Positions 2,285 to 24,306 of a DNA stretch of 64,000 nt are shown piece by piece. A model generated the notes under the pieces. The model made no database searches, had not been told where the DNA came from, and saw only the letters and a program-made list of their open reading frames with translations. The position numbers were made by a program, and so were the translations under genes. The stretch comes from Pseudomonadota bacterium (GTDB lineage: Bacteria; Pseudomonadota; Gammaproteobacteria; Steroidobacterales; Steroidobacteraceae). Within the stretch, counting starts at the first letter, position 1, and the number at the start of each line of letters is the position of its first letter. The stretch spans positions 62,001 through 126,000 of the forward strand of contig JAFEDS010000002.1 in NCBI GenBank assembly GCA_018241505.1. The letters are read 5' to 3'.

Positions 2285-2502
2285 CGGCTGCTGAACGTGG
2301 GGTGAGCGGCTGGGGCGGCCACCATAGGGCCCGCTCCGGCCCCATTGGCGCTCCAACCCCCGCCCGGTTTTGTGCTCCACCTCACCCGGAACCGTCAACG
2401 CTCCCGTTCAGTTAACGTTGCCATGGTTAGCGTAGATTGCTTTTGGAATCTACTGAGATTGACGGCATTCAGCCGCCGTTCAGCCAACGCAACGAGGTCA
2501 TC

Positions 2503-4194
2503 ATGGATAACAAATCGCGTCGCCTCACTCCGGCTCGAGCCGCTATCGCAGGTCTCGCGCTGGCGGCACTTCCGATGGCGTCTTTCGCGTTCGTTTCCGT
2601 GGGCGTTTCCATCACCGTCGCGCCACCCGCGATACCGGTGTATGTACAGCCGCCCTGCCCGGCTGTTGGCTATATCTGGACACCTGGCTACTGGGCGTAC
2701 GGCGACGAGGACTACTACTGGGTGCCTGGCACTTGGGTGCTCGCTCCCTCCCCCGGTCTGTTGTGGACGCCTGGCTACTGGGGTTGGGGTGATGGCCTCT
2801 ATGTCTGGCACGCAGGTTACTGGGGCCCTCACGTGGGCTTCTATGGTGGCGTGAACTACGGTTACGGATACGGCGGTGTTGGTTTTGAGGGCGGCTACTG
2901 GCGTGGCGGCGCTTTCTACTACAACCGGTCAGTTTCCAACCTCGGTGGGGTACATATCACCAACGTTTACAACAAGACCGTGATCAACAACGTCAACGTG
3001 ACTCGGGTGAGCTACAACGGTGGTGAAGGTGGCCTGCGTGCACGACCCAACTCCAGAGAGTTGTCAGCCGAGCACGACCGGCACGTTGCTTTCACGTCGA
3101 TGCAACGGAATCAGGAGCATGCTGCGTTTAATAACCACGATTTGCGTGCGTCTGTGAATCAGGGTCGGCCACGGATCGCTGCTACTCAGCGTCCGGGCGC
3201 ATTTACGGGTCACGGCGTGGAGGCCGCGCGTGCTGGCGAGTGGCACGGTGGCGGTGACCGCGGAAGCGCTGGGCGCGGCGCGGATGCCCGCGTTGGTGGC
3301 GACCGCGGAGGCCCCGGGCACGGAGCCGAAGTCCATGCCGCAGATCGCGGACCTGGCCACGTTGGGCCGGACCGCGTAGCCAACCGTAACGACCGGCCGT
3401 CTGGAGCGTCGGGAAGCAATGAAGTGCGCAACGGCGCGAGCGGCAGGCCGGACCGTATGGCAAACCGCAGCGACAGGCCGCCTGGAGCATCAGGTGCCGC
3501 TGACGTGCGCAGCGGCACAGGAGGTAGCGGCCCGGCCGCCAACAGTCGCGCCGCAGAAAGCCATGGCGCCCCGGCCTCTGTAAGCAGCCATGGTGGCCCG
3601 GCCACTGTTGGCAGCCACGGTGGCCCAGGTAACGGTGGGCGTGGCGGTGAGCCTGTTGTGCGTAACGACCGACCTTCGATGGGCGCCGGCAATCGCGGCG
3701 AGCCCACGACGCATTTTGCCACTCGGAACGACCGCCCACCCGGTGCAGGTAGCTCCGAGGTTCACGGTGGTACTGGCGGCCGCGAAATGCACAGCATGTC
3801 GCCCGGCCCGCATCCAGGCGGATCGCCGCAGGCATCGCCACGCGAGTTCAATGGAGGGGGCGCTTCCGCCCCTCGCCAGCAGATGGCTCCGCGGCCGCAG
3901 ATGATGACCCCACGTGCTGAGGCCGCGCCACACGCGCAGATGGCTCCGCGTCCGGAGGCCGCGCCAAGGCCGCAGATGATGGCCCCACGCGCTGAGGCCG
4001 CGCCACACGCGCAGATGGCTCCGCGTCCGGAGGCCGCGCCAAGGCCGCAGATGGCTCCGCGCGCCGAGGCTGCACCACATCTGCAGAGCGCGCCCCGGCC
4101 TGAAATGCACCGTGGTGGTGGCGAACCGCACGGCCAGGGCGGCGGGCGTCCGCAGGCTCCGCAGGGACGCGGTGGCGATCACGGACGGCGGTAA
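2503..4194 (+). CDS. YXWGXW repeat-containing secreted protein with long repetitive C-terminus
   Basis: Exported protein of unknown role, 563 residues from the ATG at 2503, which has GAGG before it. Residues 1-30 form a signal peptide (hydrophobic core ARAAIAGLALAALPMASFAF). A Tyr/Trp/Gly-rich segment follows with WTPGYWAYGDEDYYWVPGTWV-type YXWGXW repeats, a domain common in secreted proteobacterial proteins. From about residue 170 onward the protein is low complexity: Gly/Arg/Asp-rich blocks with repeated NDRPxGA-like motifs, then exact Ala-Pro-Arg repeats near the end. This C-terminal half is predicted disordered and probably extracytoplasmic. It stands alone between fpr and the phosphatase. 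Confidence 0.8.
   Translation: MDNKSRRLTPARAAIAGLALAALPMASFAFVSVGVSITVAPPAIPVYVQPPCPAVGYIWTPGYWAYGDEDYYWVPGTWVLAPSPGLLWTPGYWGWGDGLYVWHAGYWGPHVGFYGGVNYGYGYGGVGFEGGYWRGGAFYYNRSVSNLGGVHITNVYNKTVINNVNVTRVSYNGGEGGLRARPNSRELSAEHDRHVAFTSMQRNQEHAAFNNHDLRASVNQGRPRIAATQRPGAFTGHGVEAARAGEWHGGGDRGSAGRGADARVGGDRGGPGHGAEVHAADRGPGHVGPDRVANRNDRPSGASGSNEVRNGASGRPDRMANRSDRPPGASGAADVRSGTGGSGPAANSRAAESHGAPASVSSHGGPATVGSHGGPGNGGRGGEPVVRNDRPSMGAGNRGEPTTHFATRNDRPPGAGSSEVHGGTGGREMHSMSPGPHPGGSPQASPREFNGGGASAPRQQMAPRPQMMTPRAEAAPHAQMAPRPEAAPRPQMMAPRAEAAPHAQMAPRPEAAPRPQMAPRAEAAPHLQSAPRPEMHRGGGEPHGQGGGRPQAPQGRGGDHGRR
3901..4104 (+). repeat. 75-bp in-frame tandem repeat in the YXWGXW gene
   Basis: Two near-identical 75-bp units (3901-3975 and 3976-4050) and a diverged partial third copy encode 25-residue repeats beginning MMxPRAEAAPHAQ and continuing MAPRPEAAPRPQ. 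Within the unit a shorter 33-42 bp submotif (PRxEAAP) also recurs. Copies differ by only a few bases, so the array is probably prone to slippage while keeping frame. Confidence 0.85.
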
Positions 4195-4440: not shown

Positions 4441-6537
4441 ATGGATCAGCTCTCACGCAGGGACTTTATCCAAACAGCCTTCGCCTTGGGGGCGACCGCA
4501 GCAGTAGCCGCGGTGAGCGGCAAGCCTTCTACGACGACGTGGCGCGAACGTCGCGACCTGTTTCCCGAGGGCGTTGCGTCGGCTGAACCCACATTCGACA
4601 GCATACTGTTGTGGACGCGCTATCCGCCCCCGTCCGCTCCCGGCGCACACTCAAAGGTCACCCTCAAAGTCGAGCTCGCGAAAGATCCTCACTTCCAGAA
4701 CGTAGTCTCGACCTCCACCACCACGGCCTTGGGAGCCAGTGATTGGACATGCCGAGTACTGGTTGGAGGTCTCGAACCCTCTCACGAGTATTGGTACCGC
4801 TTCACCGATAGCGCCGGCAATGGCAGCCGAGTTGGCCGCACGCTGACAGCGCCCGCGGAAGACGACCCCCGCCCCGTCAAATTTGCCTTCGTGAGCTGCC
4901 AGAACGCCAACCAAGGTGCTCAACACGCCTATCGGCGAATGATCTTCGAGGACGAGAAAGCCGCAGCGGCGGAGCGGCTGGGATTTGTCCTGCATCTCGG
5001 CGACTTTATTTACGAGATTGTCTGGTATCCGGAAGACCGGCCTCAGGGTATGTACGACCGCCGGCTGCGCGACATCGTGCGCTACGAGCACGGCGAGAAG
5101 ATCAGCGACTTCCACATTCCCACCACGCTCGACGACTATCGCGCAGTGTATCGAGCGTATTTGCGCGACCCCGATCTGCAGGACGCGCGTGCCCGTTGGC
5201 CATTCATCAACATGTGGGACAATCACGAGTTTTCCTGGCTCGGCTGGCAGGCAATACAGGACTTTGAAGGCAAATCGCGCCCGGCGCAGACGCGCAAGGT
5301 CGCAGCGAACCAGGCATGGTTCGAGTACCAGCCCGCGCGCGTTACGCGTCCCGGTGTTGGGGTCATCGAATCATTCGAGCCACCGAAGCTGCGCGATGCG
5401 CCTATCGACAAGTTTGATGAGGACGGCTTCGGCCAGGAGCCCAACAACATCGCCGCCGTCGAAAGCCTGACAGGCTATCGGCGTGTCCGATTCGGCCGCA
5501 ATGTCGACCTCATCATCACCGACCAACACAGCTACCGCTCGCACGAACCCACCGCTCGACCCGAAGCGACGGCGCTGGACGACAGTGATTTCCCGCAATT
5601 GCTGCCCGAGGAAGTGCTGCAGGTCCTCGATGCGGGGCGCGAATACAATTCGCGCAAGCCGCCGCCGTTCATTGAGCTCGGCTCCAGGCAGGTTGCCAAC
5701 TTCTGCAAAAACGATCCCCCGCAGACCATTTTTGGCCGGAAGCAGAAGGAATGGTTTTTAGAGCAACTGCGCACGTCGCGGGCAACCTGGAAAATCTGGG
5801 GCAATACCGAAGGAACGCTCGATGGCCGTGCCGATCCGCAGAATCTGCCGCCAGGCATCACCAAGCCGTGGGCGGGTGCCGGTTACGCGGTGTTTGGTGG
5901 CGGAGGCGATCACGCCACAGCCTATCTGGAGCGCGCCGAGATTTACGATTTCGTTCGTCAGCACGGCATTACCGGCTTCGCTACCGTGGCAGGTGATCGC
6001 CACAGCTTCTGGGCAGGCCTTGCGTCGAAAGCGCTTCCGCCGCAGCCGTTCGATCCCGTGGGCATTGTCTTTGTGACCGGCTCCATTTCCGCGCCCGGTC
6101 TGGTCGAGGCTCTCGAGCACAAGTTTCCCGCCGTTCACCCGCTTCGCCCGCTCTATCTGGCGGACTCGCCGGTAAAGAGTGGGCCGGGGAAGCCGAAACC
6201 GGCGGTCAATATGCTGCTGAAGCACGGTGTGAAATCCTGCCTGGAATACGCTCGCAGCGCCGACATCGCCCAGGCGCGCAAGCTTTCCAACCCGCACCTG
6301 GCCCCGCACCTGTCGTTCATTGACATGGGCGGTCATGGCTACGCTACCGTTCGCGCAACCAGCCAGACCTTCGAAACCGAATTCGTCTGCATTCCGCGGC
6401 CACTCGAGCGGATCGAGCGTGCGGATGGTGGGCCACTGTTGTATCGGGTGGCTCACCGTGCACAATTGTGGACTAAGGACGGGCACCCGCGGCTCGAACA
6501 GACGGTGCTCGAAGGCAATCCCGAATTCAGTCTCTGA
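4441..6537 (+). CDS. phoD: Alkaline phosphatase D family protein (Tat-exported)
   Basis: Metal-dependent phosphodiesterase/phosphatase of the PhoD family, 698 residues, probably periplasmic. The N-terminus has a twin-arginine signal (SRRDFIQ followed by a hydrophobic Ala-rich stretch), then EGVASAEP, the start of the PhoD N-terminal domain. Catalytic-domain metal-binding motifs are visible: FVSCQ, GDFIYE (Asp188), WDNHEF (Asp260, Asn261, His262) and AGDRHSFW (Asp519, His521). The internal ATG at 4441 is chosen because it places the Tat motif at the N-terminus, and AGGTG lies upstream. The 246 bases before it are GC-rich non-coding sequence with no clear feature. Confidence 0.88.
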   Translation: MDQLSRRDFIQTAFALGATAAVAAVSGKPSTTTWRERRDLFPEGVASAEPTFDSILLWTRYPPPSAPGAHSKVTLKVELAKDPHFQNVVSTSTTTALGASDWTCRVLVGGLEPSHEYWYRFTDSAGNGSRVGRTLTAPAEDDPRPVKFAFVSCQNANQGAQHAYRRMIFEDEKAAAAERLGFVLHLGDFIYEIVWYPEDRPQGMYDRRLRDIVRYEHGEKISDFHIPTTLDDYRAVYRAYLRDPDLQDARARWPFINMWDNHEFSWLGWQAIQDFEGKSRPAQTRKVAANQAWFEYQPARVTRPGVGVIESFEPPKLRDAPIDKFDEDGFGQEPNNIAAVESLTGYRRVRFGRNVDLIITDQHSYRSHEPTARPEATALDDSDFPQLLPEEVLQVLDAGREYNSRKPPPFIELGSRQVANFCKNDPPQTIFGRKQKEWFLEQLRTSRATWKIWGNTEGTLDGRADPQNLPPGITKPWAGAGYAVFGGGGDHATAYLERAEIYDFVRQHGITGFATVAGDRHSFWAGLASKALPPQPFDPVGIVFVTGSISAPGLVEALEHKFPAVHPLRPLYLADSPVKSGPGKPKPAVNMLLKHGVKSCLEYARSADIAQARKLSNPHLAPHLSFIDMGGHGYATVRATSQTFETEFVCIPRPLERIERADGGPLLYRVAHRAQLWTKDGHPRLEQTVLEGNPEFSL

Positions 6538-13862: not shown

Positions 13863-14825
13863 ATGAAATATGAATCCAGCGTTGGCGTCAGCGTAGGCGA
13901 ATCGGCCCGTTCCCTGCTTGCCGGTGTCGAGCTCGGCGGTACCAAATGCGTCTGTATCCTCGGATCCGGTCCCGACGATATCCGCGATCAGGTGTCGGTA
14001 CCTACCGGCGAGCGAGACTCCACGCTCGCGCGAATCAACTCAATATTGGATGGCTGGCGCGACACCCACGGGCCCTTTGCCGGGCTGGGGCTCGCCTCTT
14101 TCGGGCCGCTCGACCTGCGGCGCGAATCGAAGACCTTCGGACACATCACCTCGACCGTGAAACCCGGCTGGGAAGGCACCGACGTGCTCGGGAGATTGGG
14201 CGGACATAGAAATCTGCCTGTAAACATCAACACCGATGTCAATGGCGCGGCTTTGGCGGAAGGCCGCTGGGGCGCGGCGCGCGGCTTGGATGACTTTGCA
14301 TACATTACGGTGGGCACCGGCATCGGTGTTGGATTGATTGTCGCGGGACGGACCGTGTTCGGTTGCAATCACACCGAGCTGGGCCACATCCGCATCGCGC
14401 GCCTTCCCGGCGACACCTGGCCGGGCATCTGTCAATTTCACGGCGACTGCCTCGAAGGCCTCGCCTCGGGACCCGCGATCGGCGCGCGCGCGGGCCTGCC
14501 GGGAAGCGCCATTCCGGCCGACAGCCCTGTCTGGGAGCCGGTCACGGCGGCACTGGGGCAGTTGCTGCAGACAATCCTGCTGGCCACCGCCCCCAGGCGA
14601 ATTCTCATCGGCGGCGGTGTTGTAGTGTCGCGCCCGGAGCTCATGACACGGCTGCGAGCACAGCTCGTCAAGAGCTTGAACGGTTACCTGGATCTCGACG
14701 ATTTGACGGGCGGAGTTGATCACTACGTCGTGCCGCCGGGCCTGGGCGCCCTCGCCGGCCCGCTGGGCGCACTGGTCCTGGCCGCAGATGCCGCCTGCGT
14801 CGCAAACAACCAGCCCGGTTGCTGA
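13863..14825 (+). CDS. ROK family sugar kinase (fructokinase-like)
   Basis: Cytosolic ATP-dependent hexose kinase, 320 residues, in the normal ROK order: phosphate-1 motif ELGGTK (residues 23-28), sugar-binding NTDVNGAA (123-130) with the catalytic Asp, phosphate-2 GTGIG (151-155), ELGHIRI, the fructokinase-type zinc region CQFHGDCLEGLASG (190-203) and adenosine motif GGG (250-252). The CxFHxDC variant is typical of the fructokinase/manno(fructo)kinase branch. An AT-rich TAATAAATAAAA tract precedes the ATG. Inorganic pyrophosphatase follows 42 bases downstream. Confidence 0.88.
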   Translation: MKYESSVGVSVGESARSLLAGVELGGTKCVCILGSGPDDIRDQVSVPTGERDSTLARINSILDGWRDTHGPFAGLGLASFGPLDLRRESKTFGHITSTVKPGWEGTDVLGRLGGHRNLPVNINTDVNGAALAEGRWGAARGLDDFAYITVGTGIGVGLIVAGRTVFGCNHTELGHIRIARLPGDTWPGICQFHGDCLEGLASGPAIGARAGLPGSAIPADSPVWEPVTAALGQLLQTILLATAPRRILIGGGVVVSRPELMTRLRAQLVKSLNGYLDLDDLTGGVDHYVVPPGLGALAGPLGALVLAADAACVANNQPGC

Positions 14826-16665: not shown

Positions 16666-17343
16666 TCAGTCTAAGCGCTTTTCGGGCAGTGCGGACACTT
16701 TCTGGCCGAAAAGCAGCTCCGGCAGTCGCACCATGTCTGTGAACGTGACCTCGGCTCCTGCTGACAGCAACTGCCGTGCCGGGGTATGGGCGCAGTATCC
16801 ATACACGCGCATTCCGGCAGTCACTCCCGCACGGACACCGGCCGCGCTATCTTCGATCACCGCGCAGCGCTGCGGTTCCACACCGCATCGGGCGGCCGCA
16901 TACAGAAATATATCCGGGGCCGGCTTGCCATGCGGCACTTCGGTGGCACTGAACATCCTGTCACGGAATCGCGGCAGCAGTCCCGTCGCACCCAACGTGG
17001 TGGCCATCTTGTCGTGGCCGCCGCTCGAAGCCACGCAACAGGGCACGGGGAGCGAATCGAGAACGGTCACGACACCCGGAACGGGTTGCACCTGCGCGCG
17101 CAAAGCGGCCAGCGAGCGAAGTTGAAATTCGTCGCGGAAGGCCGCGGGTACCTCGTGGCCCAACAGGCGGCCGACCTGCTGCCAGCAGTGTTGCATCGAG
17201 CGTCCGACAAAATGCTCGAACAGGTAATCGATACCCAGCGGCAGGCCGATCCCGGCCAGCATGTCGGCAAAGACTCGGTTGGTGATGAGCTCGCTGTCCA
17301 CCAGCACGCCATCACAATCAAAAATAATCAGTTCCGGGGTCAT
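16666..17343 (-). CDS. HAD-superfamily hydrolase, subfamily IA
   Basis: Phosphatase of about 225 residues. Motif I is DCDGVLVDS with nucleophile Asp9 and acid/base Asp11, motif II is ASSGGH, motif III is the Lys in HGKPAPDIF, and motif IV is VIEDSAAG. A helical cap sits between motifs I and II. It resembles YieH/beta-phosphoglucomutase-like sugar-phosphate phosphatases; the substrate is unknown. The start is 38 bases from the divergent ROK-like gene, so they may share a control region and perhaps a sugar-phosphate theme. Confidence 0.85.
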   Translation of the reverse strand: MTPELIIFDCDGVLVDSELITNRVFADMLAGIGLPLGIDYLFEHFVGRSMQHCWQQVGRLLGHEVPAAFRDEFQLRSLAALRAQVQPVPGVVTVLDSLPVPCCVASSGGHDKMATTLGATGLLPRFRDRMFSATEVPHGKPAPDIFLYAAARCGVEPQRCAVIEDSAAGVRAGVTAGMRVYGYCAHTPARQLLSAGAEVTFTDMVRLPELLFGQKVSALPEKRLD

Positions 17344-17381
17344 TGAGTGGAACGTAACCGCGACCCAGGTATTTCACCATC

Positions 17382-18464
17382 ATGGCGGAGTCCTCCGAAA
17401 CCCCTTCTCCCTCGCTCCTGGCACATGGCGCGGAGCAACTGAGCCTCGTGAGCGTGGACACTTACAACGCGGAGCTGCGCACCGCGGATGGATTTATCGG
17501 GGACCGGGCCAGCAAGCGCGCCTTTCAGTCCATTCTCGACGACTGGCGCGAGCGCATGCGCAAGGCGGGCGAGGATCCGCTGGGGGATACGCCCAGCGAG
17601 GAGCTGAGCAAGAAGCAGCTCGATAAGCTGCTGGCCGACGGCGATGCGGAAGCCGCCGGCATGATCCACGGCGCCATCGAAGAATTTGCGCAGGAGTTCG
17701 CCGCGGTGGTGCGCCGCTTGTTGCGCCTGAAGTGTTGGAAAGACGCCCAGCGGATCGTGGTGGGTGGCGGGCTGCGGCAGAGCCGGATCGGCGAGTTGGC
17801 GATCGGGCGCACGGCCGTGCTGCTCAAGGCCGACGGCCACGACCTCGAGCTGAAACCCATTCGTTACGATCCCGACCATGCGGGCCTGATCGGCTGTGTG
17901 CAACTGGTCCCGGCGTGGATCCTGGCCGGTCACGACAGCATCCTTGCCGTTGACATCGGCGGCAGCAACATCAGGGCCGGTGTGGTGGAGCTGCGCGCGA
18001 AGAAAAAGGCGGACTTCTCCGAGGCCGAGGTGGGCCGCTTCGAATTGTGGCGGCATGCCGAGGATGATCCGAAGCGCGCGGCCGCCGTGGCCCGCTTGAT
18101 CGACATGCTGAAGGATCTCATCAAGCGCGCCGCGAAGGATGGCCACGAGTTGGCGCCCTTCATTGGGATCGGCTGCCCCGGTGTCATTGAGGCGGACGGC
18201 TCGATTGATCGGGGCGGCCAGAACCTGCCGGGCAACTGGGAGCACAAGAGCTTCAACCTGCCGCACCTGCTGCGCGAGGCCATTCCGCGCATCGGCGATC
18301 ATGACACCGTGGTGGTCATGCACAACGATGCGGTGGTGCAGGGTTTGAGCGAGCTGCCGTTCATGCAGGACATCGAGCACTGGGGCGTGCTGACAATCGG
18401 TACGGGCCTGGGCAACGCCTGTTTCACCAATCGCAAGTCCGCCAAGGAATCGGCCCGCAAATAG
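17382..18464 (+). CDS. ROK-like protein with circularly permuted motif order
   Basis: A 360-residue ASKHA-fold protein related to ROK sugar kinases but arranged in a different order. The motif that normally ends ROK proteins, RIVVGGGLRQS (GGG at 128-130) with the following AGLIG helix, comes first. The phosphate-1 motif AVDIGGSN (191-196), normally at the N-terminus, comes second, then IGCPG, and the phosphate-2 motif GTGLGN (340-345) lies at the very C-terminus. The ROK zinc motif is absent. The order contrasts with the canonical ROK protein at 13863. Kinase activity and substrate are unproven. It is divergent from the HAD phosphatase and followed by a GST gene. Confidence 0.8.
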   Translation: MAESSETPSPSLLAHGAEQLSLVSVDTYNAELRTADGFIGDRASKRAFQSILDDWRERMRKAGEDPLGDTPSEELSKKQLDKLLADGDAEAAGMIHGAIEEFAQEFAAVVRRLLRLKCWKDAQRIVVGGGLRQSRIGELAIGRTAVLLKADGHDLELKPIRYDPDHAGLIGCVQLVPAWILAGHDSILAVDIGGSNIRAGVVELRAKKKADFSEAEVGRFELWRHAEDDPKRAAAVARLIDMLKDLIKRAAKDGHELAPFIGIGCPGVIEADGSIDRGGQNLPGNWEHKSFNLPHLLREAIPRIGDHDTVVVMHNDAVVQGLSELPFMQDIEHWGVLTIGTGLGNACFTNRKSAKESARK

Positions 18465-18509: not shown

Positions 18510-19229
18510 ATGACCGACGCAGGCGCGGTGCTCGCCGCATTCCCCATCACGCGCAAGTGGCCTGCCCACCACCCGGACCGCCTGCAGCTCTATTCACTGC
18601 CGACGCCGAACGGAATCAAAGTTGGCGTGATGCTCGAGGAAACCGGCCTCCCCTACGAGCCGCACCGGGTCGACTTCGATACCAACGAGCAGTTGTCCCC
18701 GGAATTCCTCTCGCTCAATCCCAACAACAAGATTCCGGCCATCATTGATCCCCACGGCCCCGACGGCCGGCCGCTCGCACTGTTTGAATCGGGCGCGATC
18801 CTCGTCTACCTCGCCGAAAAAACCGGCCGCTTCATGCTGCCCACGGCGGCGGGCCGCTACGAGACCCTGCAGTGGCTCATGTTCCAGATGGGGGGCATCG
18901 GCCCGATGTTTGGCCAGGTGGGCTTTTTCAACAAGTTTGCCGGCAAGGACTACGAGGACAAGCGGCCCCGCGACCGTTATGTTGATGAGGCACGGCGCCT
19001 GCTCGCGGTTCTCGAGCAGCGGCTGGCGGGCCGCGCCTGGATGATGGGCGAGCTGTACACCATCGTGGACATGGCCATATTCCCCTGGGTCCGCAACCTC
19101 ATCGGCTTTTACGAAGCCGGCCCCCTGGTGCAAATAGAGAGGTTTCCGAACGTGACCCGGGTCCTGGAGGCCTTCCTGGCCCGCCCCGCCGTGATGCGGG
19201 GGCTCGATATTCCCAGGCGCCCGCGATGA
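18510..19229 (+). CDS. Glutathione S-transferase (YfcG/nu-class-like)
   Basis: Cytosolic GST-fold protein, 239 residues. The thioredoxin-like domain has LYSLPTPNGIKVGVMLEE, NPNNKIPAI with the cis-proline, and FESGAILVYLAEK, the glutathione gamma-Glu binding segment; the all-helical domain has YTIVDMAIFPWV with the N-capping box. The TPNG sequence in place of a catalytic Tyr/Ser, and NPNxKIPAI, match the YfcG/YghU-type disulfide-bond reductases. GGAGG stands before the ATG. No substrate can be assigned. Confidence 0.88.
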   Translation: MTDAGAVLAAFPITRKWPAHHPDRLQLYSLPTPNGIKVGVMLEETGLPYEPHRVDFDTNEQLSPEFLSLNPNNKIPAIIDPHGPDGRPLALFESGAILVYLAEKTGRFMLPTAAGRYETLQWLMFQMGGIGPMFGQVGFFNKFAGKDYEDKRPRDRYVDEARRLLAVLEQRLAGRAWMMGELYTIVDMAIFPWVRNLIGFYEAGPLVQIERFPNVTRVLEAFLARPAVMRGLDIPRRPR

Positions 19230-19377: not shown

Positions 19378-20031
19378 ATGAGCAACGACCGAATCGAGGG
19401 GCGGGTCGAAGGCGATGCTTCGCGCAACCTCGAAGCGCCCCCCGGCACCCCGGACGAGACTCGGCCACACGTTGCTCCCCTTTCCCAAGCCGCCGTTGCA
19501 GCCCTCATCGAGCAGAACTACGTGGGTCTGCGGCTGCTCGTCGCGCGCCGCTGTCGTGACCCGCACGTGGCTGCCGATCTTCTCAATGAAGCCGTGGTTA
19601 CCACCTGGACCAAGTGGCAGGCCGGGAAAATCGAGCGTCCCGAGCAAATTGCCGGGTACGTGTTGCAGGTCACGATGAACCTGTTGCGCAACCATCGGCG
19701 CGCGATCGCCGAACGCCCAGAAAAACGCGCGGATGCCGCCAAACTCCAGGAGCTGGCCATTGAGCGGGAGCCGGGCGATGAGACCATTGAGCGGGAAATC
19801 GCCGTACAGGTCAAAAAGGTGATTCGCGATTTGTCCTCGCCGCGCGATCGAATGATTCTGGTGAGGTTTTACCTGGACGAAGAGGAGAAAGAGACCATCT
19901 GCCGCGACATGGGATTGAGCCCCCTGCAGTTCGACAAGATCCTGCACCGGGCCCGCGGACGGCTGCGCAAGCTGCTCGAATCCGGCGGCCTGGGACGCAA
20001 CGATCTGCTGTGCCTGCTGCCCTTCCTGTGA
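19378..20031 (+). CDS. ECF-type RNA polymerase sigma factor
   Basis: Alternative sigma factor of 217 residues. Region 2 is visible as LIEQNYVGLRLLVARRCRDPHVAADLLNEAVVTTWTKW, with the usual helix pattern of ECF sigma-2, and region 4 as LSSPRDRMILVRFYLDEEEKETICRDMGLSPLQFDKILHRARGRLRKLL, a helix-turn-helix. The first 35 residues are a variable extension. The stop is 20 bases before the probable anti-sigma start, and the downstream CHAT/caspase genes lie on the same strand, so they are plausible targets. Confidence 0.88.
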   Translation: MSNDRIEGRVEGDASRNLEAPPGTPDETRPHVAPLSQAAVAALIEQNYVGLRLLVARRCRDPHVAADLLNEAVVTTWTKWQAGKIERPEQIAGYVLQVTMNLLRNHRRAIAERPEKRADAAKLQELAIEREPGDETIEREIAVQVKKVIRDLSSPRDRMILVRFYLDEEEKETICRDMGLSPLQFDKILHRARGRLRKLLESGGLGRNDLLCLLPFL

Positions 20032-20051
20032 ACCGGTGTGACCCCGCGCCC

Positions 20052-20771
20052 ATGAATACTCACAGCCTCATTGACGATCCCACGAGGGCCAGCCGCTACC
20101 TGGCAGGCCAACTCTCGGACGCGGAGAGCGCGGCCTACGAAGCCCGTTTCGCCGAGGACCCCGACGCGCTCGCGGAGCTCGAGGCCACGGCACGGCTCAA
20201 GATCGGTCTGCACCGGTTGCGCCGCGACGGCGAGCTGTCCGAGTTGCTGGCCAGCACGAGCTCGCCGTCACCCAACCGGACCTGGATGTTGGCGATGGCC
20301 GCCGGCATCGCCGCCGCGGTCATTGGGATCGGCTTGTGGTTCCCGCGCACCGCGCCCATCAGCGCGCCGGTGCTGGCTTCCGCTGCGAGCGTGTTCAAGG
20401 ATCACAACGGGCACTCGCTGTCGGTCATGGCAACCGCGCCGCTGTTTCGGACGCGGGCGGAGAAATATGACGCGGTCATCGAGTTGCCGCGCGAGCGCGG
20501 CGCGATCAAACTGCGGGTGTTGCCTTCGAGTCCAACACCGGCAGCACGCTATCAGGCCGCCCTGTCCCGTATGAAGGATGATGACACCGCGGAACGCGCA
20601 GTTACGGTGACGGACTTGAAACCGAGCGCGGACGACGGCTTCATTGATGTGTTTGCCGACAGCTCGCTCCTGGCGCCGGGACGTTATCGACTCACACTGA
20701 CACGCGCGCCCGGTGGCACGGACACCGGCGAAAGCGACACCTTTGTCATCAAGGTGAACAGCACTCACTGA
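20052..20771 (+). CDS. Probable membrane-anchored anti-sigma-like protein
   Basis: A 239-residue single-span protein. The cytosolic N-terminus (TRASRYLAGQLSDAESAAYEARFAEDPDALAELE) has the pattern of anti-sigma N-terminal domains, YLxGxLsxxExxxFExxLxxdp, though without zinc-binding Cys/His. A membrane helix follows at about residues 80-100 (WMLAMAAGIAAAVIGIGLWF) and the rest is a periplasmic beta-rich domain. It is encoded directly after the ECF factor, as expected for a partner. The ATG at 20052 is chosen; the longer frame would overlap the sigma gene without gain. Confidence 0.65.
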   Translation: MNTHSLIDDPTRASRYLAGQLSDAESAAYEARFAEDPDALAELEATARLKIGLHRLRRDGELSELLASTSSPSPNRTWMLAMAAGIAAAVIGIGLWFPRTAPISAPVLASAASVFKDHNGHSLSVMATAPLFRTRAEKYDAVIELPRERGAIKLRVLPSSPTPAARYQAALSRMKDDDTAERAVTVTDLKPSADDGFIDVFADSSLLAPGRYRLTLTRAPGGTDTGESDTFVIKVNSTH

Positions 20772-20820
20772 CGAGCGAACGCCGCGCGGCGTCTCTCGAG
20801 AGCGGACGTGAACGGCGCGC

Positions 20821-23800
20821 ATGGGAAATCGAGTGAATCGCTCATCTACCTGGCGTTTGACTACCGGGCGCTCGTTGATCCGGCGCCCGATGCTCTGGCA
20901 CTCAATGGCCTGCGTGGTCGGCACGATGCTGTGCATGGGCAACGCATCTGCGGCCAACTGTGATGCGAACCTGGCCAATACGCCGCCGCTGTACCAGGTC
21001 AATGTGCAGATTCGGGGTCAAAACCCCGTTCGTAACACCTTCACTGTCAGCTCCAACGCCAGTCTGATGATCTTCGCCCAGGAGCGCGGCGCGGATATCA
21101 CCCTGGAAGTGCTGGATTCCTCAGGACAACTGCTGGGCCGCGGCGACAATCCGGTACGGCGAACCGGCATTCAGCGCGTAGCCCTGGCCGCGCAATCGGG
21201 CCAGCGTTTCTACATTGCGGTAACAGGCAAGGACCACGCGGACTCCCGGGGCTCCGTTGACTTGCGCGTAGTCGACATGAACGGCGCGGGCGCAACAACC
21301 TGTATCGAGGCGCAGAAACACCTTGCAGCAGCCGACGCGGCCTATGCAACAGGACAGGCGGTGACGCGCGCGGTCGCGGGAAATGCGCCTGCCACCAGCT
21401 CCGAAGAAGCCTACAAGGACGCTGCCCGCGGCTATCGCGAAGCCGCCACGAGCCTCGCGGGCGCAGGCCCCTCCCCTTTGCTCGCTGCAACTCAACTCGC
21501 GCTCGCGACCTTGCTCGATGTTGACGGCGACGGCTATGCGGAAGCGCGTACATGGGCGGCCAAGGCCGCTGAAACCCATGCGGCGCTCGGCGATGACTAC
21601 GGCGGGGCCCGGGCGCGAGCCATTGAAGGGGCGTCCGAATTCGACGTTGCTGTTTCCGTAAAGAAATCTGGAAGCACTGACGCAGCCAAACAGGCAGAGA
21701 CCCTGTTGGCGGATGCCCGTCACCAGCTCGATGCCGTGGTGAGCTTTCATCTGGCCCGGAAGGAATTCCACGACGCGGCCTGGGCACAGAATCTCATCGG
21801 ACTCACCTTCTACTACCAGAGCCGCTATGACGAGGCGATCCGCGCCTATCGACGGGCGTTCCCGCTGTACGAACGTTCACACGAACGCATGCGCCAGGCG
21901 CAGGTGCTGCAAAATCTCGCCCTGGTCGAATACGAGCTGGGCCGGCTGTCGGATTCCCTGCCGCATTTCAAACAGGCGCTGGACGCCGTCAAGGCGGAGG
22001 ACAATCCCAAGTTCGTCGCCACCCTGCTCAGCAACTATGCCCTGGCGAACTGGGCGAGCGGCGCCGACGATCTGGCGCTGCGCCAGTTGGGAGATTCGCT
22101 GGCCCTGACCCGTACGATCCAGGACACCGCCCAGCAGGCAGCGGGCCTGCACAACATCGCCACGGTTTACGCCAGCCTGGGTGATGACGAGCGCGCTCTG
22201 GATTTCTATGGGCAGGCGCAGACCCTGTTGGATGTAACACCCAATGTCCGGACCCGGACCGCGTTACTGCGGGCCAAGGCCAACATTTTGCGCCAGCAGG
22301 GACACGCCGAGGATGCACTGAAAATGGACCGTGACGCGCTGGCGCTTGCCTCAACCTACAGCAAACCGCGGATCATGGTGCAGATTGCCAGGGACCTGCT
22401 CGTCCTCGGTCGCTCCGCGGAAGCGGACGAACAGCTCGAAGCAGTGTTGAGTACGGGCTCGGGCAGTGATGAAGTACAGCGCGCGAAAGCGTTGGCGGTG
22501 CGTGCACAGATGCGTTCCGCCGCCGGTAATTTCGCCGCGGCCGAGGCGGACTCGCGCACTGCCCTGGAGACTTTTGCAGCCTATGAGTTGCCCGTCGACC
22601 AGTTTGAAGCGTGGCTGACCCTGGCGGACCTCCTGCGCCATCGCGGCGCGACCGACGATGCATTCGCGGCTGTCGATCGCGCGTTGGCACTGGCGGAGGA
22701 AGTGCGGCTGCAAAGCGCAAATCCCGAGCTGCGCTCCACCCTGATGCAACCGCTGCGTCCCGCGTTCGATCAGAAGATCGCAATGTTGGCCGAGCGCTAC
22801 CAGGCAGCGGCCGGCAATCCCGGGGTGCAGGCCGCCTTTGCGCTTCGCGCCCTGGAAACGGCCGAGCAGGCCCGCGGCCGGGCACTTGCGGACTATCAGA
22901 CACTGGACGTCACGGCGCCGGGCCTGGATCCAACACTCCTCACGCATCGGCAGACGCTGTACCGGGAGCTGGCGGCACGCCGCTTCCGGCTCGAAGCCCG
23001 ACTGGATCGCACCGGCACCGCCGACTCGGAGAGCCAGGCCATCCGCGGTGAGATTGCCAACCTGCGCCAGGAGATCGACCAGATCGATGCCAGGATCGGC
23101 GCCGCTTCCCAGAACGCCCGCGGCCGCCGCCGGGAGCGGCCGAAGCCGGCATCATTGGCTCTCAGCCGCATCCCCGCGGGCCTCGCCATCATTGAATACT
23201 GGGTGGGCAACGCGGGTTCGTTTGCCTGGGTCGTGAGCCGCGACGGCGTGAAGATGCGCAGGCTCGAGGCGAGCGCGGCCAACATCAACTCCGAGGCGAG
23301 CTCAATGCACGCCGCGTTGCGCAGCTTCGGATCGGTTCCCAAGGCACAACGGCTGGAGGCCGGTGAGCGGCTGTACAAGCTGGTGATGGAGCCCCTGGAA
23401 GCGGACATCAAAGGCGTCCACACGTTGATATTCGCGCTCGACGGCGCTTTGCACTATGTTCCATTTGCAACCTTGCGGTGCGCCGACGCCGGTAAGAGCG
23501 TGTTCCTCGTGCAGCGCTATGACATTGCTGTCACGCCGTCAATCCAGATGTTTCTGCAACCGGCCCCGCCCACAACCCCACCTGCCAAACAGATGTTGTT
23601 GGTGGACGATCCGGTCTACGGCCGGTTCGATCCTCGTGTAGGCAACATGACCGCCGCCGCCACCTCCGAGCCCGCGCCGACGTTGGTACGAGGTGCCACT
23701 CCCGGCGTGAACCTGCCGCGCCTTCCGGGTGCCGCCCGGGAAGCTGCCGCGATCGCGGCGTTGATGAACACTGGGACCGTCGACCGCCTGGATGGGTTCG

Positions 23801-24306
23801 CCGCCAATCGCGATCGATTTCTCGCCTCGGGCCTGGATCGCTATCGGCTCATTCACGTCGCCACCCACGCGCGGACCGACTCCGAAATTCCGCAAGCCTC
23901 CGCGCTCATCCTGAGCACCGTCGATGCTTCCGGCAAGGAAGTCGATGGCCGGGTGTTGGCTGCCGACTTTGTTGGCGTGCGGCTGCGCGCCGACACCGTG
24001 GTGCTGAGCGCTTGCGACACGGCGTTGGGAAAACGCGTCGCCGGTGAGGGACTGATCGGCTTGCAGTACGTCGTGCTTGCCCGCGGCGCGCGCTCGGTCA
24101 TCTCCTCGCTGTGGCCCGCAATCGACCGGGCCACAGCGGATGTCATGGTGAAATTCTATTCGGTGCTGCTACATCAGCATACAACAGTGATTTCGGCGTG
24201 GAGCGCCGCAAGCCGTGCGACATTGGAAGGGCCGTACGGCGACCCGGGGATCTGGGGGGCCTTCATGCTGACTTTGAGCCACGTCGATGACGTGAGCTTG
24301 CAATGA
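20821..24306 (+). CDS. Secreted TPR-CHAT (caspase-like) protein
   Basis: Large exported protein (1161 residues). A signal peptide with an Arg-rich n-region ends near SAANC (about residue 46). Residues 50-160 form a beta-sandwich resembling pre-peptidase C-terminal domains. Residues ~190-700 are TPR repeats (for example AQNLIGLTFYYQSRYDEAIRAYRRAFPLYE). A coiled coil with EIANLRQEIDQIDARIG follows near 740-770. Residues ~790-1160 are a CHAT domain, a caspase-fold protease, with catalytic His1016 in HVATHA and Cys1065 in VLSACDTALG. It sits after the ECF/anti-sigma pair. Substrate and activation signal are unknown. Confidence 0.85.
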   Translation: MGNRVNRSSTWRLTTGRSLIRRPMLWHSMACVVGTMLCMGNASAANCDANLANTPPLYQVNVQIRGQNPVRNTFTVSSNASLMIFAQERGADITLEVLDSSGQLLGRGDNPVRRTGIQRVALAAQSGQRFYIAVTGKDHADSRGSVDLRVVDMNGAGATTCIEAQKHLAAADAAYATGQAVTRAVAGNAPATSSEEAYKDAARGYREAATSLAGAGPSPLLAATQLALATLLDVDGDGYAEARTWAAKAAETHAALGDDYGGARARAIEGASEFDVAVSVKKSGSTDAAKQAETLLADARHQLDAVVSFHLARKEFHDAAWAQNLIGLTFYYQSRYDEAIRAYRRAFPLYERSHERMRQAQVLQNLALVEYELGRLSDSLPHFKQALDAVKAEDNPKFVATLLSNYALANWASGADDLALRQLGDSLALTRTIQDTAQQAAGLHNIATVYASLGDDERALDFYGQAQTLLDVTPNVRTRTALLRAKANILRQQGHAEDALKMDRDALALASTYSKPRIMVQIARDLLVLGRSAEADEQLEAVLSTGSGSDEVQRAKALAVRAQMRSAAGNFAAAEADSRTALETFAAYELPVDQFEAWLTLADLLRHRGATDDAFAAVDRALALAEEVRLQSANPELRSTLMQPLRPAFDQKIAMLAERYQAAAGNPGVQAAFALRALETAEQARGRALADYQTLDVTAPGLDPTLLTHRQTLYRELAARRFRLEARLDRTGTADSESQAIRGEIANLRQEIDQIDARIGAASQNARGRRRERPKPASLALSRIPAGLAIIEYWVGNAGSFAWVVSRDGVKMRRLEASAANINSEASSMHAALRSFGSVPKAQRLEAGERLYKLVMEPLEADIKGVHTLIFALDGALHYVPFATLRCADAGKSVFLVQRYDIAVTPSIQMFLQPAPPTTPPAKQMLLVDDPVYGRFDPRVGNMTAAATSEPAPTLVRGATPGVNLPRLPGAAREAAAIAALMNTGTVDRLDGFAANRDRFLASGLDRYRLIHVATHARTDSEIPQASALILSTVDASGKEVDGRVLAADFVGVRLRADTVVLSACDTALGKRVAGEGLIGLQYVVLARGARSVISSLWPAIDRATADVMVKFYSVLLHQHTTVISAWSAASRATLEGPYGDPGIWGAFMLTLSHVDDVSLQ

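Follow-up and report, generated by a model that had tools for sequence, protein, structure and literature searches.

A natural, circularly permuted ROK-type kinase gene from a Steroidobacteraceae bacterium, as indicated by sequence and structure prediction

Kinases of the ASKHA fold have two lobes that close over ATP, and the order of their motifs along the chain is usually assumed to be fixed. Among them, the ROK kinases (PF00480), such as the human GNE N-acetylmannosamine (ManNAc) kinase (2yhy), the Streptomyces griseus glucokinase (3vgk) and the polyphosphate/ATP glucomannokinase (1woq), share with the protein described here both lobes and the phosphate-1, phosphate-2, adenosine and ND motifs. 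The gene concerned (17382..18464, + strand) lies in a stretch of 64,000 nucleotides from a Steroidobacteraceae bacterium (contig JAFEDS010000002.1, positions 62,001 to 126,000), hereafter the window, and consists of a single open frame of 360 amino acids plus stop. Its architecture is almost certainly that of a circularly permuted ROK-type kinase with the ASKHA fold, and a natural permuted kinase of this type is the explanation that we strongly favour overall.

Residues 1–184 (17382..17933, +) are the counterpart of the canonical ROK C-terminal lobe, now first, and residues 185–351 (17934..18434, +) that of the N-terminal lobe, now last. The initial annotation, which proposed the permutation, had located the three nucleotide-site motifs exactly: the adenosine motif GGG at residues 128–130 (17763..17771, +), the phosphate-1 motif DIGGSN at residues 191–196 (17952..17969, +) and the phosphate-2 motif GTGLGN at residues 340–345 (18399..18416, +). 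The canonical ROK kinase of the window (13863..14825, +), which lies outside the feature and served as a yardstick, has the order attributed to it, with GGTK at residue 25, GTGIG at 151 and GGG at 250. The junction likewise has the form that had been described, since in the model a helix (164–175) and a short helix (178–181) lead into a strand (186–192); the linker (residues 177–187; 17910..17942, +), delimited from the model's secondary structure, thus connects the old C-terminal helix with the old first strand. Sequence and prediction together indicate a protein with the old C-terminal lobe first, a short linker and then the old N-terminal lobe, in which the new termini fall just past the phosphate-2 hairpin.

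At least 596 stretches of genome contigs matched the search pattern, and 540 of them encode a relative at E 1e-3, a number that possibly includes ordinary ROK genes; the best 80 loci of these 540 were taken as the family set. The rotated order (GGG before DxGG before GTG) was kept in 81/81 aligned members, and none of the 81 had the canonical linear order of phosphate-1, phosphate-2 and adenosine motifs. Only 13–51 residues follow GTG in the permuted members, whereas 27 of the 28 canonical proteins have the order DxGG, GTG, GGG/S, with 164–192 residues after GTG. In three members (G071, G614 and G785), the reading frame is open from upstream until right after GTGLGNA, and the stop found there is therefore the terminal one.

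Profile comparisons recovered each ROK half separately. The Pfam ROK profile (PF00480) aligned with residues 188–352 of the window protein over profile positions 2–143 (34.6 bits), thus passing its curated cut-off (22.9) over half of the profile only, and it matched 75 of the 81 family members at E values of up to 0.1. The NCBIfam ManNAc-kinase model matched residues 101–174 weakly (profile 212–284; E 0.0019; its 17.8 bits fall far short of the cut-off, 450). Family profiles detect only half of these proteins, because the motif order is rotated. The canonical alignment used for comparison comprised 28 proteins (26 distinct), namely the window kinase and 27 of 35 loci from the genome search, the other eight having been dropped because they gave no frame by the pattern used. 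With hhalign, residues 183–355 of the family aligned with canonical positions 3–154 (probability 93.7, E 1.9e-7) and residues 61–184 with positions 160–303 (probability 76.2, E 2.2e-5). Each half was thus placed once, in swapped order, which bears out the circular permutation and rules out a second copy of the C-terminal half in an otherwise canonical chain. An artefact of this last kind, or one due to a frameshift, a misassembly or a wrongly joined contig, can for practical purposes be dismissed, given that order and ends are identical in 81/81 members from many genera and in named plasmid records, and that the gene is a single open frame with a confident single-chain model.

Rotating the sequence brought no gain against the hidden Markov model (HMM) of the canonical set (medians of 12.1 and 12.1 bits); this comparison is uninformative, because HMMER lists each lobe as a domain of its own whichever order is used (window protein: ROK 203–298 at residues 73–175 and ROK 7–146 at residues 189–352). 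With the rotated alignment, hhalign gave muddled joint alignments, and rearrangement to the canonical order raised the Pfam ROK score merely from 34.6 to 37.7 bits. In searches of the PDB, the native family profile matched in pieces only (E 0.00054), and no ROK protein was among the matches of the first-half profile. The best matches of a rearranged profile built from seven sequences cross the new junction, with 1woq aligned over positions 2–188 (E 0.00041) and GNE over 1–220 (E 0.00086). The canonical-order profile was also used to look for an unpermuted sister among 200 genomes of the phylum: 28 matched, nine of them carrying family members, whose native proteins matched in two pieces and never in one (9/9), and the remaining 19 matches were confined to positions 2–167, with at most 33.6 bits.

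The predicted model is a confident single chain whose halves fall on the two ASKHA/ROK lobes, the C-terminal half on the N-lobe and the N-terminal half on the C-lobe, the latter match being weaker. In a Foldseek search with the whole model, the first rows were human hexokinases (E 3.7e-6), but with a root mean square deviation of 30–36 Å over both halves. The BFVD search gave distant Hsp70-like rows.

D191, G193, G194 and N196, the CPG motif (C265, P266 and G267; 18174..18182, +), H314, N315 and D316 of the HNDA motif (residues 314–317; 18321..18332, +), G340–N345 and G128–G130 are each present in 81/81 members. D316 is presumably the expected catalytic base. ExGH is the ROK signature and substrate motif, and CxCGxxGC is a zinc motif that not all ROK proteins have. 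The former was found in a single family member (L014, at residue 220, in the wrong place) versus 26 of the 28 canonical proteins, and the latter in 0/81 versus 22/28; the rearranged profile aligns ELGH of 1woq and GNE with a family stretch that has neither E nor H. The first lobe instead contains Nx[EM]...FxGD (residues 29–41; 17466..17504, +), present in 80 of the 81 members and in 0/28 canonical proteins, which in our view resembles a glucose-binding stretch of hexokinases and is taken as a lead only. The substrate or the binding mode probably differs from that of ROK kinases, because ExGH and the zinc motif are missing and Nx[EM]...FxGD occupies that lobe. These patterns suggest that the family retained its ATP site and catalytic pair while its sugar site was rebuilt, and that the protein derives from, and may act like, a ROK kinase without being an ordinary member, as it departs from the linear order, ExGH and zinc features.

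On this sequence evidence, we lean towards an ATP-dependent kinase acting on a sugar-like substrate. ATP would be enclosed between the two lobes, in the manner of ordinary ROK kinases and hexokinases, with D316 activating a hydroxyl of the substrate. The absence of ExGH and the zinc motif, the lack of a conserved sugar pathway nearby and the presence of the ROK repressors Lmo0178 and Mlc among the structural matches would also suit a permuted descendant of a ROK protein that is no longer catalytic and senses a sugar or nucleotide or regulates it, much as ROK repressors employ the fold for sensing. We consider this rather unlikely, since a non-enzyme need not keep the phosphate-1, phosphate-2 and adenosine motifs and the ND pair invariant in 81/81 members, and no DNA-binding domain was found above the Pfam threshold.

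The best 80 loci were mainly from Bradyrhizobium, Rhodopseudomonas, Rhodoplanes, Acetobacteraceae and other Alphaproteobacteria, together with three Gammaproteobacteria and two Myxococcota, both of the latter being metagenome bins. Identity to the window protein was 58–78% for the A2 members and 45% for one divergent member. In PLSDB, 207 records matched, 204 of them covering 80% or more of the query, including 111 from Rhizobium and 79 from Sinorhizobium. A plasmid of Bradyrhizobium barranii (NZ_CP121645.1:362176-362481, hit H70) matches only 31% of the protein and is perhaps a remnant. The profile matched 51 of the 398 genomes of a phylum sample, 22 at full length and 29 just weakly, in ordinary ROK N-lobes. 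The gene was present in only one of 36 other genomes of the window's genus, many of which are incomplete. Searches of phage records, IMG/VR and PHROGs yielded no relative.

In a quick N-lobe tree (72 rows, 65 of them different, with long branches among the canonical rows), the 22 permuted rows were split from the 50 canonical rows with 100% support in the Shimodaira-Hasegawa-like approximate likelihood ratio test (SH-aLRT). From the sequences, one old rearrangement event looks like the simplest reading. The window's own genome also contains, on contig C8 (583812-585668; L093/L094), a tandem ROK pair, a repressor (judged by its N-terminal extension) followed by a kinase-like ROK protein. Such a pair is a possible start for a permutation and, alike, for a chimera, in which halves of two distinct ROK genes, or the parts of a split gene, were joined into a very similar-looking protein; the halves do differ in the strength of their match to canonical ROK. 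We nevertheless regard a chimera as improbable: the two halves are complementary, each occurring a single time, the first half matched no particular other ROK subfamily in the searches made, and the tree, which covers the N-lobe only, gives a single origin for that half.

Upstream of many members of this permuted family there is a box resembling the EcfG promoter, published as GGAAC-N16-CGTT (PMC3892343), with GCAAC and TGTT as common alternatives (PMC7083833). Starts were available for 86 genes, one of them too near a contig end, leaving a set of 85 that includes a few non-alphaproteobacteria. Of these 85 genes, 54 have the pattern G.AAC-N16/17-[CT]GTT, widened after inspection of Bradyrhizobium sequences, between -120 and -10 relative to the start; the remainder of the same loci predicts 0.33, the opposite strand gave 4/85, and spacings of 12–13 and 20–21 gave 0/85. 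With G[GC]AAC, the count was 28/85. Grouped by shared 10-mers, the 85 regions form 50 groups, with the box in 27 of the 50 representatives; in a second set it was present in 13/24, two of the 24 being already counted or the window's own gene and others possibly repeating species. Patterns beginning with GGAAC were rarer: GGAAC-N16/17-CGTT in 7/86 (0.09 expected), GGAAC-N15-18-YGTT within 300 bases in 11/83, and GGAAC-N15-17-YGTT in 10/86. GGAAC alone was present in 23/86 (7.48 expected). Sinorhizobium meliloti has a copy on pSymB, and in strain 1021 the box upstream of the gene is perfect. Five divergent permuted members from other genomes of the window's class (L146–L150; G785, G632, G795, G614 and G071) have no EcfG-type box upstream.

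The window gene has a promoter-like box, GGAAC-N16-TATT (17349..17373, +), 33 bases before the start codon and one base off the YGTT of its relatives. In the gammaproteobacterial loci L002, L012, L013 and L014, GGAAC lies between -54 and -68, and 16 bases separate it from TATT, AATT, TGTT and TGTT, respectively. These copies would need another extracytoplasmic function (ECF) sigma factor, because EcfG is reported to be confined to Alphaproteobacteria (PMC3892343). In Alphaproteobacteria, control of the gene by the general stress response is likely: EcfG, their sigma factor for general stress, would activate the gene, which would probably serve sugar metabolism in times of stress. The EcfG regulon of Bradyrhizobium diazoefficiens includes trehalose genes (PMC8092242). 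A word search of the main text of regulon papers, including PMC3892343, PMC7083833 and PMC8092242, found no ROK protein named as an EcfG target.

In Rhizobium leguminosarum WSM1689 (L011, locus 5098-5877), otsB (trehalose-phosphatase) is divergent to the permuted gene, which fits a link with trehalose in one lineage. Tetronate and threonate genes lie near the gene in Phyllobacterium, and in Bradyrhizobium it lies in a chromosomal stretch with proteins that we identified by eye as ribosomal L21, Obg and glutamate 5-kinase. Neighbourhood clustering revealed no conserved operon, the gene itself having been picked up in just 51 of the 88 loci; at the others, it was missed because longer antisense open reading frames displaced it. 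In the window, its neighbours are a divergent HAD-type phosphatase (16666..17343, - strand; PF00702, 84.5 bits) and, downstream, a glutathione S-transferase (18510..19229, +; PF02798, 53.9 bits). A glutathione S-transferase also lies 3' of the gene in the congener L002 (open reading frame 2334-3038). Further downstream, a sigma-70 region 2 protein (22.6 bits, cut-off 24), a frame of 253 amino acids and one of 1161 amino acids follow in succession (19378-24306, +). The largest has, by eye, TPR-like repeats and a CHAT-like end, and the three-gene run is perhaps one cassette.

A large, conserved, rotated family indicates that the ASKHA fold tolerates rotation in nature. It offers nature's own experiment on the way in which the connection between lobes influences folding and closure, and it draws attention to what is probably an uncharacterised kinase acting in the general stress response of rhizobia. 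Taken as a whole, the following proposal falls just short of an even chance: that the family is the first case of natural circular permutation within the ROK/hexokinase branch of ASKHA, fixed once and spread through Alphaproteobacteria and some Gammaproteobacteria, and now a general-stress kinase with a sugar site rebuilt for a substrate not used by any known ROK protein.

Changed segment order has been described in another fold. ADP-dependent glucokinase has a ribokinase-like fold, other than ASKHA. Its comparison with 2-keto-3-deoxygluconokinase (PMC2213659) likewise shows a changed order with a conserved ATP/ADP site, but as a local segment swap, unlike the exchange of two lobes in the window protein. 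Thousands of permuted pairs are reported in PMC12667903, the main text of which does not contain the terms "ROK", "kinase" or "hexokinase". The hexokinases (PF00349) resemble the window protein through a weak Hexokinase_1 match (residues 186–249; 18.5 bits, below the cut-off of 24.3) and differ from the permuted family in that its motif order is rotated. The polyphosphate glucokinase model NF045942 gave 30.2 bits, against a cut-off of 250. With the EcfG (RpoE2, RpoE4) regulon of Alphaproteobacteria (PMC3892343, PMC7083833), many relatives share the upstream box GGAAC/GCAAC-N16-CGTT/TGTT. The ROK kinases are among the closest described proteins, from which the permuted family is set apart by its rotated motif order, the absence of CxCGxxGC and an ExGH motif that occurs only misplaced, in one of the 81 members.
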